NCBI RefSeq assembly: GCF_023953935.1
Contig: NZ_JAMLIW010000001.1
Span: forward strand, 310,001-374,000
Direction of reading: 5' to 3'
DNA: 64,000 bases
Source of the DNA: Thermomonas sp.
GTDB lineage: Bacteria; Pseudomonadota; Gammaproteobacteria; Xanthomonadales; Xanthomonadaceae
Shown: positions 2,969 through 45,658 of the stretch, one piece after another
Layout of the letters: every line of letters starts with the position of its first letter
Position numbering within the stretch: position 1 is the first letter of the stretch
Translations under genes and position numbers: made by a program
Notes under the pieces: generated by a model
Told to the model about the DNA's origin: nothing
The model's input: the letters and a program-made list of their open reading frames with translations, nothing else
Database searches by the model: none

Positions 2969-4417
2969 ATGCACAACAGCCGATTCGACGCCGTCCAAGC
3001 CCGTGACTTCATCGCGGCGAAGTGGGACCAGGAAATCGTCCCGACCCTGGTCGACTACATCCGCATCCCGAACAAGTCACCGATGTTCGACATCGATTGG
3101 GGGGCCAATGGCCACATGCAGCGCGCGGTGGCCCTGTTCGAAGGCTGGGCGCGCGCCCAACCCATCGCGGGCATGCAGCTTGAAGTCGTCCAGCTGGCGG
3201 GGCGCACGCCGCTGATCTGCATCGAAATTCCGGCGTTCGGCGGCGGCAGCGGCGATGACTGCGTGTTGCTCTACGGCCACCTCGACAAGCAGCCGGAGAT
3301 GACAGGCTGGGATGAAGGCAAGGGCCCGTGGACGCCGGTCATGGAAGGCGATCGCCTGTACGGGCGCGGCGGTGCCGACGATGGCTACGCGATCTTCGGC
3401 GCGCTGACCGCGATCATGGCGCTGCAAGCCCAGGGCACGCCGCACGCGCGCTGCGTGGTGCTGATCGAAGCCTGCGAAGAGTCCGGCAGCTACGACCTGC
3501 CGGCCTACGTCGATCACCTGTCCGCCCGCATCGGCAAGACTTCGCTGGTGGTCTGCCTGGATTCGGGCTGCGGCAATTACGAGCAGCTGTGGTGCACGAC
3601 CTCGCTGCGCGGCATGGCCGGCGGCAACCTCACCGTCGAAGTGCTGTCGGAAGGCGTGCATTCCGGCGATGCCTCCGGGATCGTCCCGTCCAGTTTCCGG
3701 ATCCTGCGCGAGCTGCTCGCCCGCATCGAGGACGCCGGCAGCGGCAAGATCCTGATCGACGCCATGCACGTCGAAATTCCCGCCGATCGCCACGCGCAGG
3801 CCAAGCGCATGGCTGAAGCGCTGGGTGACGAGGTGTTCAGCAAATTCCCGTTTTTGCCCGGCATGACCCCGATGGGTACGGACCGCACCGAACTCGTGCT
3901 CAACCGCACCTGGCGGCCGGCGCTGTCGATCACCGGCGCCGACGGCCTGCCGCCGCTGGCCTCGGCCGGCAACGTGCTGCGCCCTTCGACTTCGCTCAAG
4001 CTCAGTCTGCGGCTGCCGCCGACGCTGGACGGCAAGCGCGGCGGCGAGTTGCTGCAGGAGGCCCTGCTGAAGGATGCGCCCTACGGTGCGCGCATCAGCC
4101 TGCATCTGGAAAAGGCCAGCACCGGCTGGAACGCTCCGACCATGGCGCCCTGGCTGGAAAATGCGATCGAGCAGTCGAGTCAGGATTTCTTCGGCAAGCC
4201 GGCGATGTACATGGGCGAAGGCGGCACGATTCCGTTCATGGGCATGCTCGGCGAGAAGTACCCGGAGGCGCAGTTCATGATCACCGGCGTACTCGGCCCG
4301 CATTCCAATGCCCACGGCCCGAACGAGTTCCTGCACATCCCGATGGGCAAGGCCGTGACGGGCTGCGTGGCGCGGGTGGTGGCGGAGCACGCGCAGCGGG
4401 GAGTGGCAGGGGGCTGA
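2969..4417 (+). CDS. M20 family metallo-dipeptidase
   Basis: The 482-residue product is an M20A/M20F-type zinc peptidase. The usual ligands are visible: H104 in LLYGHLDKQ, D137 in GRGGADDGYA, the catalytic glutamate and its neighbour in EACEESGS (about 170), D in VVCLDSG (about 199) and H in the GPHSNAHGPNEF segment near the C-terminus. The lid domain lies at about residues 205-380. It probably hydrolyses dipeptides in the cytoplasm; there is no signal peptide. A purine-rich GAAGGGA lies 5 bases upstream of the ATG. It stands alone, between the comEA-like gene (divergent) and the helicase. Confidence 0.85.
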   Translation: MHNSRFDAVQARDFIAAKWDQEIVPTLVDYIRIPNKSPMFDIDWGANGHMQRAVALFEGWARAQPIAGMQLEVVQLAGRTPLICIEIPAFGGGSGDDCVLLYGHLDKQPEMTGWDEGKGPWTPVMEGDRLYGRGGADDGYAIFGALTAIMALQAQGTPHARCVVLIEACEESGSYDLPAYVDHLSARIGKTSLVVCLDSGCGNYEQLWCTTSLRGMAGGNLTVEVLSEGVHSGDASGIVPSSFRILRELLARIEDAGSGKILIDAMHVEIPADRHAQAKRMAEALGDEVFSKFPFLPGMTPMGTDRTELVLNRTWRPALSITGADGLPPLASAGNVLRPSTSLKLSLRLPPTLDGKRGGELLQEALLKDAPYGARISLHLEKASTGWNAPTMAPWLENAIEQSSQDFFGKPAMYMGEGGTIPFMGMLGEKYPEAQFMITGVLGPHSNAHGPNEFLHIPMGKAVTGCVARVVAEHAQRGVAGG

Positions 4418-4460
4418 GGTCACAGCCTGGCCTAGCATCGCCCGAATTTCATGGTCGATT

Positions 4461-4562
4461 GAAGCAGGTTCGGGTGCCCTAGGACGCGAATGTCCTCCGG
4501 CGCCGGCCCGTGGCCGACGCCTCCCCCCTTGATTTTGCGTCCTAGGACACCCGAACCTGCTT
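4461..4562 (-). repeat. Two-storey hairpin element, copy 1 (motif on minus strand)
   Basis: An outer stem of 26 bp (4462-4487 with 4537-4562) has a single non-Watson-Crick position, C4477/A4547, which is a G-U wobble on the minus strand. Inside it, a second stem pairs 4499-4508 with 4512-4521 around a 3-nt loop. Read on the minus strand, the unpaired core is AAAATCAAGGGGGGA before the inner hairpin and GGAGGACATTC after it. The outer stem contains CCTAGG. The element lies in the gene-free tract 4418-4903 with copy 2 in opposite orientation 40 bp away. Confidence 0.75.
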
Positions 4563-4602
4563 TCCTGATTGCAAGTCACACATCGGTCACGACAAGCCGA
4601 CG

Positions 4603-4700
4603 GCCGTGACCCGTGGATCTTCGGGGCAAAATCAAGGAGGAGGCATTCGTCGAAGACGGATGCCGGGGGACATTTGCCCCGAAGATCCGCGGGTCGCGGC
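4603..4700 (+). repeat. Two-storey hairpin element, copy 2 (motif on plus strand)
   Basis: A 28-bp outer stem pairs 4603-4630 with 4673-4700; its only non-Watson-Crick positions, T4607-G4696 and T4614-G4689, are wobble pairs on the plus strand. An inner 10-bp stem pairs 4642-4651 with 4655-4664, loop GAA, again with one T-G pair. The core on either side of the inner hairpin is ATCAAGGAGGA and GGGGGACAT. The arms share no sequence with copy 1, yet the core is nearly identical. The remainder of 4418-4903 holds no gene; a CATCCGCGTCAAAAAGC segment near 4798 resembles one at 33205-33220. Confidence 0.75.
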
Positions 4701-4903
4701 AGGCTCGAAGATCCAGCAGGCGGAATTTCAATTCGTCGAGACCCACCAAGGCACCTGAAGATGGGTGCCGGTATTGCGGTTCCAGTTTCTGTGTATCCAT
4801 CCGCGTCAAAAAGCACTTTCCTGACCGCGGGTCACGAACCGCCCATCGCAACCCGCGTAGAATGAACCCCCGTTTGACTTCGGCGACAACGCCCGCAGGC
4901 CTC

Positions 4904-6739
<1,836 letters not shown>

Positions 6740-18476: not shown

Positions 18477-19243
18477 AGCCGCACCTCGATGCCGCTTGCG
18501 CGCAGCCCGCGCTTGAGTTCGGGAATGGCCAGCGCGCCGGAATGGAACACGCTGGCGGCCAGCGCGCCATCGACGTCGGCTTCGCGGAACACTTCCGCGA
18601 AATGCGCCGCCGCGCCGGCGCCGCCGGAGGCCACCAGCGGCACCGCGCACAGCGCGCGCACAGCGCGCAGTTGCGCAATGTCATAGCCTGCGCGCACGCC
18701 ATCATTGCCCATGCAGTTGAGGACGATCTCACCGGCGCCGCGCTGCTGGGCTTCCACCACCCAGTCGAGGGTGCGCTTGTTCGGCGCGCGCATCGCCTGC
18801 GGATGGCCGCTATGCGTGCGCACCCGCCACTGGCCGTCGGCCTCGCGCAACGAATCTATGCCGACCACCACGCATTGCTGGCCGAACGCTTCCGCCAGCT
18901 CGGCGATCAGCGCCGGGCGTTCCAGCGCCGGGGTATTGATCGAGATCTTGTCGGCGCCGGCATGCAGCAGCGCGCGCGCGTCCTCGACGCTGCGGATGCC
19001 GCCGGCGACGCAGAACGGGATATCGAGGACACGGGCGATCCGCTCGACCCAATCGCAGCTGGCGCTGCGCCCTTCCGGACTGGCGGTGATGTCGTAGAAC
19101 ACCAGCTCGTCGGCGCCGGCTTCGCGATAGCGCAGCGCCAGTTCGAGGCAGTCGCCCATGTCGACGTGGTCGCGAAAGCGCACGCCCTTGACCACCCGCC
19201 CGGCGCGCACGTCGAGGCAGGGAATGATCCGTCGGCTCAACAT
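18473..19243 (-). CDS. hisF: Imidazole glycerol phosphate synthase, cyclase subunit
   Basis: The 256-residue (beta/alpha)8 barrel opens with [19 protein letters not shown], including the catalytic aspartate (CLDV), and carries the second one in [26 protein letters not shown] and [12 protein letters not shown] bind the phosphates. With HisH it forms imidazole glycerol phosphate and AICAR from PRFAR. The gene overlaps hisA by 7 bases at 19237-19243. Confidence 0.95.
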
Positions 19244-32492: not shown

Positions 32493-32846
32493 TGGTGGAG
32501 GTGGGGGGAATTGAACCCCCGTCCGAAGATGCTCCATGCCAGGCACTACATGCTTAGCTCGGTGTTTGGTCTCGGATGGCGGCAACACACCGTGCGAGGC
32601 ACGCCGTCATCCACACCCGCTGAGTTTCGGAGCCGGTTGGCGGGTCGCCGCCGGAACCTATCCCGTGATAATGACCCTACATCCACGAGCACAGGCACAA
32701 GTGGGTTCGGGGCTAGGCCTTAGGCGGCCAGAGCGTAGTTGTCGTCGTTGGCAACTATGAGTTTTGCAGCTGGATTAGCGAGGAAAGCTACCCCCTCGGC
32801 ATGCGCCGTGCGATTTCGCAACCCCCGTCGAAGCCAGTGCACCCCC
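32493..32846 (-). ncRNA. ssrA: Transfer-messenger RNA
   Basis: The 354-nt gene starts GGGGGTGCACTGGCTTCGAC and ends with GGTTCAATTCC and an encoded ACCA; GGGGGTG pairs with CACCTCC to give the 7-bp tRNA-like acceptor stem with one G-U. GCATGCCGAGG, the pseudoknot lead-in, and the tag ORF ANDDNYALAA followed by TAA are in place. Length and layout match the one-piece gammaproteobacterial tmRNA (363 nt in E. coli). It rescues stalled ribosomes with SmpB, which is not in the window. Promoter and terminator are both visible. Confidence 0.97.
32720..32752 (-). other. tmRNA proteolysis-tag reading frame
   Basis: Resume codon GCC at 32750-32752 begins the tag ANDDNYALAA, ended by TAA at 32720-32722. 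It differs from the E. coli tag by one residue (D for E at position 4). The upstream ATAGTTG before the resume codon is the conserved setting. Confidence 0.93.
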
Positions 32847-45555: not shown

Positions 45556-45658
45556 AAGCCGGGCTGCCGCCGCCACTTCCGCTCATGTCCCCCGATGGCG
45601 GCTTGCTGCCGCCATCTCCTCCTTAGACTTCGCTTCAGCGGCGGCGGCAGCCCGGCTT
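45556..45658 (-). repeat. Two-storey hairpin element, copy 3 (motif on minus strand)
   Basis: A perfect 19-bp outer stem pairs 45556-45574 with 45640-45658 and a perfect 9-bp inner stem pairs 45594-45602 with 45608-45616 around a 5-nt loop. On the minus strand the inner hairpin is preceded by CTAAGGAGGA and followed by GGGGGACATGAGC, the same core as copies 1 and 2, while both stems are different in sequence. The element fills the middle of the 310-bp gap 45464-45773, which holds no convincing gene. Confidence 0.75.

Follow-up and report, generated by a model that had tools for sequence, protein, structure and literature searches.

The closest described counterparts of the element reported here are REPINs and BIMEs, which go together with RAYT and which the accessible parts of their descriptions define as palindromes of 20-40 bp with a GT(A/G)G or CGTC tag (PMC2817692, PMC3733652). 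As far as these sources go, our element resembles them in being a short palindromic intergenic repeat with many copies, inverted pairs and a strand-specific fold, and differs from them in the absence of a tag, in its two storeys of ~100 nt, in stems that are free to change and in three carriers without a Y1 transposase (PMC2817692, PMC3733652). The units that carry it in Luteimonas terricola and in a further genome (G152) are also akin to MITEs: they measure ~400 bp, have terminal inverted repeats, mostly target T/A tracts, possess no evident coding capacity, are flanked by direct repeats of 8 bp in two or more cases and have multiplied recently. Unlike MITEs, their interior is a covarying pair of hairpins with a nearly invariant core, which is also found without terminal repeats and occurs across two proteobacterial classes. 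The intrastrand triplex repeat TM_ECO, with the pattern CCCTCNCCC-GGGNGAGGG-GGGNGAGGG, is likewise a G-rich repeated motif tied to rearrangement; judged by eye against the available text, this pattern is dissimilar to our core, whose loop has no C-rich partner strand, and an intrastrand triplex was rejected on that comparison (PMC4666352). Finally, covarying stems around a conserved core are shared with the candidate structured RNA families of Rfam 15, from which the element is set apart by the lack of a gathering-score match for the window pair and for 15 loci of other genera.

In this mobile bacterial repeat, selection has clearly acted on the fold while leaving the sequence largely free, and the hundreds of natural variants allow the RNA and the single-stranded DNA reading of a mobile palindrome to be tested against each other. 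The family raises the question of what moves such a repeat where a Y1 transposase is not found. Direct experimental handles are offered by the outward-facing pair, by the coupling of loop bases and by the inversions in place described below.

Results

Three copies of a two-storey hairpin in the window

An earlier sequence-only reading of the window (the whole 64-kb stretch of DNA analysed here) had described three copies of a two-storey hairpin. Fold z-scores and a covariance model confirmed all three, at 4462-4562 (minus strand), 4603-4700 (plus) and 45556-45658 (minus). The element, an intergenic repeat of ~100 letters, runs from the outside inwards through an outer stem, a 5' loop strand, an inner hairpin and a 3' loop strand to the second outer arm. 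Copy 1 has its outer arms at 4534-4562 and 4462-4490, the 5' side of its internal loop (ATC-AAGGGGGGA) at 4522-4533, its inner hairpin at 4499-4521 and the 3' side of the loop (GGAGGACA) at 4491-4498, all on the minus strand. The arms of copy 2 (4603-4630 and 4673-4700, plus strand) enclose ATCAAGGAGGA at 4631-4641, the inner hairpin at 4642-4664 and GGGGGACA at 4665-4672. Copy 3, which stands alone, follows the same plan on the minus strand, with arms at 45629-45658 and 45556-45585, GTCT-AAGGAGGA at 45617-45628, the inner hairpin at 45594-45616 and GGGGGACA at 45586-45593. Loop strands were placed by sequence and model match, inner hairpins by fold and model match.

Folding energies of the motif strand were -75.8, -79.6 and -78.0 kcal/mol for copies 1, 2 and 3 (z -9.6, -10.7 and -8.1; 200 shuffles per copy, none of which folded as well). 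The covariance model, for which 20 copies of the own genome were used, recovered all three at E <=6e-15, matching 4468-4556 (90.8 bits; copy 1 was completed by stem extension), 4608-4695 (97.5 bits) and 45563-45651 (72.9 bits). Two extra rows in the window were copy 1 read weakly on the opposite strand (E 4e-5) and a row of chance level at 18966 (E 0.48).

Copies 1 and 2 face outward across a spacer at 4563-4602, flanked by genes for an M20 peptidase and a DEAD-box helicase. Copy 3 has a pseudouridine synthase gene on one side and an AHSA1-type gene on the other. Inspection of 4300-5000 revealed no promoter- or terminator-like site beside the pair, and neither of its hairpins is followed 3' by the T-run of an intrinsic terminator.

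A dispersed family with a conserved purine-rich core

The same reading had proposed building a covariance model and searching the genome and its relatives; this returned 25 matches in the own genome and further copies in relatives. The core pattern itself gave 19 own-genome matches, as opposed to 0 for a reversed-pattern control, and copy 1 falls outside these 19 because of the one extra G in its core, AAGGGGGGA. Within the genus Thermomonas, 24 of 25 genomes hold at least one copy. Family-wide, strict filters that lose weak matches left 46 of 247 genomes and 7 of 54 genera. A pattern scan of a species collection hit at least 119 stretches, with a model match in 105 among those listed; the 14 listed stretches without one (for instance in Lachnospiraceae) are taken as chance. 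Among the matches listed, carriers include Luteimonas, Lysobacter, Stenotrophomonas and Pseudoxanthomonas in the Xanthomonadaceae, and Rhodoferax, Hydrogenophaga, Ramlibacter, Rubrivivax and Sulfurisoma in the Burkholderiales/Rhodocyclales. When 24 carrier genomes were re-searched with the model, all gave matches (2 to 105 each), among them 'Ca. Nitricoxidireducens bremensis' (G099) with 105, L. terricola (G107) with 88 and G105 with 25. Model matches were found in 2 of 14 viral-contig loci, and a blastn search for plasmid or phage carriers returned none. Two copies (L266, L285) sit on JAHREJ contigs labelled Bacillus subtilis SK7B5, probably mislabelled or contaminated assemblies.

The earlier reading did not know the element from any named family, and the searches agree with this: neither the window pair nor 15 loci from other genera reached a gathering score in Rfam 15, three weak rows (E 0.1-0.6) being unrelated, and the REP definitions do not fit as far as the accessible parts of their sources go (PMC2817692, PMC3733652). 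No description was found among the papers listed in a search of the open-licence PMC literature by sequence letters and topic, a scope that leaves subscription papers and preprints outside.

Across 159 distinct copies from 27 genomes, the outer stem measures ~28-32 bp (28-32 bp in 102 copies), longer than the 19-28 bp first given. This set omits 6 of 77 and 3 of 92 rows (opposite-strand readings and one weak row), 1 identical row and the contig-end matches G011:C84 and G011:C55. The inner stem has ~10 bp, most commonly capped by a three-base loop, and some copies contain G-A mismatches beside the core or, some six pairs away from it, a small additional internal loop.

The 5' loop strand mostly reads A/G-T-C/A-AAGGNGGA (RTM-AAGGNGGA) and the 3' strand GGRGGACA, with GGA conserved on both. 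Core conservation in the full row set is inflated, many loci having been retrieved through the core pattern itself; in the 88 rows without an exact match to that pattern, the eight GG positions are still conserved at 0.91-1.00. Variants of the first motif, in 324 rows, were AAGGGGGA (53), AAGGCGGA (8) and AAGGTGGA (2). The middle bases of the two strands combined as A+G in 248 rows, G+A in 52, A+A in 13, C+G in 8 and G+G in a single row, where 42 were expected for the latter; in three separate sets, G+G was seen 1, 0 and 0 times against expectations of 13.4, 9.5 and 18.4. The identities of the two middle bases depend on each other, and the two probably touch. The initial interpretation of the core as a Shine-Dalgarno sequence is not supported, given these variants and a middle base that is coupled across the loop.

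DNA hairpins favour C(GNA)G loops. Among 294 distinct inner hairpins, this type accounted for 67 of 127 three-base loops, while four-base loops included 0 UNCG and 5 GNRA out of 39, the remainder having other loop sizes.

One subfamily (L006, L010, L012, L017 and L084) has as its left neighbour a different hairpin with arms GTCGCGGGTTGCCCGCTGGGG... and another inner sequence, cut off in L012; it is perhaps a second type of core.

Covarying stems and a strand polarity reveal a single-stranded fold

In a plain MAFFT alignment of 20 own-genome copies, 94.3% of cells were paired and 28 of 33 pairs showed two-sided changes. The number of cells changed on both sides, 172, compares with 52.5 from shuffles; 0 of 500 shuffles scored as high on all five measures, and slid controls were 33-42% paired. 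RNAalifold returned the same two helices, with two-sided changes in 28 of its 30 pairs. This covariation, together with that found in place at the metG-rnfB site (below), upholds the original suggestion of a dispersed family whose structure is kept while its letters change; the further statement that the stem sequences are unrelated goes too far, since stems form subfamilies.

It had also been claimed that every non-Watson-Crick pair is G-U on the motif strand. As an absolute this fails, with one A-C pair at the foot of the outer stem of copy 1 and, at the foot of that of copy 3, five non-standard pairs that are neither G-U nor A-C (of G-A type where readable). As a polarity it stands: the outer 23 pairs of the 159 copies comprise 3103 Watson-Crick, 211 G-U, 59 A-C and 284 other cells (G-U vs A-C, p 3e-21), although some copies were retrieved by a model that rewards pairing and the per-copy counts are not independent events. 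Of the other cells, 195 of 284 fall at six of the eight core-adjacent positions, where mismatches of G-A type occur often. Outside the 23 pairs, the stem extension adds 988 Watson-Crick, 100 G-U, 12 A-C and 32 other cells. The ratio of G-U to A-C was 331/45 in the 247 rows with an exact core pattern and 122/32 in the remaining 88, a 335-row set that keeps about ten opposite-strand rows, which works against polarity. Rows from genomes and viral contigs (167) gave 248/21, and the inner stem 103/39.

In outward pairs, whose two members are on opposite strands, the left members scored 43/17 and the right ones 53/8. Single copies, in groups of which some are small, scored 94/30 between convergent genes, 46/6 in sense, 14/4 in antisense (12 copies) and 25/2 between divergent genes. 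As the sign is the same across strands and gene contexts, neither replication strand nor the direction of host transcription is its cause. The motif strand must therefore fold as RNA or as single-stranded DNA, which is what the polarity of the window copies had been taken to point to and now extends to every group counted. Given this preference for G-U over A-C, a function of the folded single-stranded form is well supported. Tolerance of G-U and sense retention in place fit RNA; the types of inner loop fit DNA at least as well.

Outward-facing pairs lie in a terminal-repeat unit in two genomes

Many copies occur in pairs. A neighbour within 450 bp was detected for 62 of the 159 copies and not for 97; in 49 of the 62 the order was minus-then-plus, that is, outward-facing. 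Of the neighbour pairs picked, a set that leaves out L256 (cut by the end of its locus), 61 of 63 point outward, their members usually lying ~40-110 bp apart. The earlier reading had not recognised outward pairing as a rule, nor the mobile unit that carries the pair or the in-place inversions.

In L. terricola, both pair members are near-identical at many sites, and the likeness extends past the pair to ends of the form GGTTCWTCTCCSAACT...GGGG and their inverse. Both ends were found in 9 of 20 units, spanning 398-414 bp, and not in the other 11; T/A tracts flank eight of the nine on both sides, L371 having no tract on its right. In G152, another genome of the family, ends of GGTTCTTCTCCCAAGTGAGGGG-type were present on one or both sides in 14 of 14 loci and on both in 7, at 306-435 bp. 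Direct repeats of 8 bp flank L362 (TTTTTCTT) and L420 (AAAAGAAA). For L. terricola and G152, a recently multiplied non-autonomous mobile element is thus well supported.

Beside other copies, ends of the Luteimonas type are scarce: both occur in Luteimonas padinae and one in Lysobacter antarcticus and a few others, a pattern scan of 103 genome-contig loci found one or both in 6 (both in L273), and only 1 of 131 genus copies has such an end within 420 bp. Mobility is inferred outside the two genomes, in the genus, because of this last count, from dispersal. A general search for extra terminal repeats around 74 pairs stayed mostly at chance level, in a scan whose positive control was itself only modest; L331 and L325 scored high, the former in terminator-like sequence and the latter without explanation.

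In 'Ca. Nitricoxidireducens bremensis', 19 ordinary pairs are near-identical within other flanks. By eye, many of these units (L388-L406) seem to sit between a stop codon and a sequence resembling a ribosome-binding site plus start, as though the following gene took its start signal from the unit.

The widest two of the 63 neighbour pairs (L263:3043-4561 and L283:6663-7477) hold toxin-antitoxin-type genes between their hairpins: CopG_antitoxin in one, TumE and an HVO_A0114-type regulator in the other. These may reflect chance or cassette capture. An autonomous version with its own gene between the hairpins was considered and rejected, since no transposase was recognised within the two.

We consider it rather probable that the family as a whole consists of MITE- or REPIN-like elements that are intergenic, mobile and non-autonomous and whose core works in the folded single-stranded form. 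Its characteristic unit would be two outward-facing two-storey hairpins, single copies presumably being pairs that have lost one member. Each hairpin would act once its motif strand has become single-stranded and has folded: the outer stem and inner hairpin would fix the shape of the purine-rich loop (AAGGNGGA / GGRGGACA), most likely so that a protein provided in trans can recognise it. In L. terricola and G152 the pair would travel within the ~400-bp unit and land in T/A tracts, presumably moved by a DDE-type transposase. Old copies would persist near gene 3' ends, with the fold kept over much of the genus at one site, and folding would serve propagation more than any host gene.

A bolder proposal, which we put forward tentatively and would not expect to hold in full, is that the element represents a new class of structured nucleic acid. 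GGNGG would here oppose GGRGG, maybe in a two-layer G-quadruplex-like or purine-paired junction, and some machine would read the single-stranded form of an element that is mobile in two proteobacterial classes, is flipped by its arms and is put to host use, for example at metG-rnfB.

Retention near gene ends and a possible role in mRNA

None of the 159 copies lies wholly within a gene called by a crude caller; 70 sit between convergent and 18 between divergent genes, and single copies in tandem regions are sense in 26 and antisense in 12 cases. One site was followed across the genus by comparison of flanks. Between metG and an rnfB-like gene (read as rnfB by eye), 14 of 25 genomes carry a copy, a count that excludes L029 (outside the orthologue list), and 13 of the 14 copies are sense. 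At this site 90.9% of cells pair, 21 pairs and 55 cells are changed on both sides, and 0 of 500 shuffles scored as high. Over 21 stem positions off the core, the orthologues differ on both sides 663 times against 351 expected for independent sides, and one-sided changes comprise 157 G-U, 15 A-C and 78 other, all of these being pairwise and not independent counts. Such compensatory changes between orthologues imply that the fold has been maintained in place. This long retention fits a host function equally well, and the copy at metG-rnfB is possibly a regulatory RNA that has been domesticated.

Generalised to the whole family, these observations lead to a different explanation, in which the element is a cis-acting RNA of mRNA 3' ends and intercistronic regions (a stabiliser, a processing site or an insulator) and mobility is only its mode of spread. 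With an outward pair, each of two convergent genes would then carry the same element in sense at the distal end of its transcript, in line with the excess of convergent over divergent locations and of sense over antisense singles. We regard this as possible but doubtful. G-U exceeds A-C in antisense (14/4) and divergent (25/2) copies too, and no terminator-like site accompanies the window pair. A fuzzy core scan of the two window sites found an element upstream of the helicase gene in only 3 of 25 genomes, and one downstream of the pseudouridine-synthase gene likewise in only 3 of 25; the second count includes L190, an incomplete locus, and the other neighbour gene is not common to all. Furthermore, orientation is reversed in place at three sites: relative to the genes, G000 and G019 have copy 1 the other way round, as do G000 and G011/G019 for copy 3 and G020 for the metG copy.

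Searches for a mover

Candidate movers were sought with two profiles, Y1_Tnp (PF01797) and DDE_Tnp_ISL3 (PF01610). A REP or REPIN moved by RAYT, a Y1 transposase, on single-stranded DNA would account for small, palindromic, intergenic repeats in inverted pairs with a strand polarity, and for C(GNA)G, the type favoured by DNA hairpins, in 67 of 127 three-base inner loops. We nevertheless think it very improbable. The GT(A/G)G head is absent, AAGGNGGA preceding the inner hairpin in nearly all aligned rows. Y1_Tnp was present in four of seven genomes and absent in the other three, G107, G099 and G105, which include the two with most copies and where this explanation is contradicted unless the assemblies miss the gene. 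Seven of the 25 genus genomes likewise gave no Y1 match, and all seven carry the element; nine Y1 loci of ~3 kb each, the own genome's included (L053:996-1694), contained no match to the element model. Membership in the RAYT/REP group was thus rejected on tag, transposase and flanks. Repeats of 20 nt of the type AATTGTCCCTGACACC(A/G)TTT, a separate small repeat, flank the only Y1-transposase-like gene of the own genome (L053:988-1824).

ISL3 elements are characterised by GGTTC-like ends and by A+T-rich duplications of 8 bp, features that suggested ISL3 for the Luteimonas unit. It was rejected as the mover there, PF01610 being absent in G107; it was also absent in G000 and occurred once each in G099, G119 and G120. 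No reading frame of the lone-end locus L381 was recognised as a transposase.

Inversions in place and copying between arms

Because the arms are inverted repeats, we propose that copies flip between them; arm-to-arm recombination or template switching is the simplest account of the in-place inversions. Some other orientation differences may instead reflect loss of different pair members, as one site with both members in G014 retains one or the other in six other genomes. In G021 (L155; L104:1452-1530), half of copy 1 has apparently been replaced by the complement of the other half, yielding a palindrome that is possibly a snapshot of template-switch copying.

While this half-copied palindrome and the inversions suggest that arm-to-arm copying probably happens, we give little credence to the idea that long inverted repeats are kept perfect by replication template switching between arms, with no selection at all: the process is strand-blind and would equalise G-U and A-C, which stand at 331 to 45 in the plain-pattern rows, and it leaves the conserved loop and its coupled middle bases without explanation. 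That the element is a small RNA transcribed from a promoter of its own, for instance a sponge for a CsrA/RsmA-type protein with a liking for GGA motifs, is scarcely credible, for despite the GGA on both loop strands and the many copies per genome, own-genome copies share little beyond their hairpins (one subfamily excepted), the window pair has no promoter-like site next to it, and the first motif has a middle base that changes along with the opposite strand, unlike what such a binding site would predict. The mobile element that acts as a folded single strand remains the explanation we prefer.

Apart from the hairpins, the window contains a tmRNA gene at 32493-32846 on the minus strand, with the tag ANDDNYALAA (Rfam RF00023; ARAGORN).
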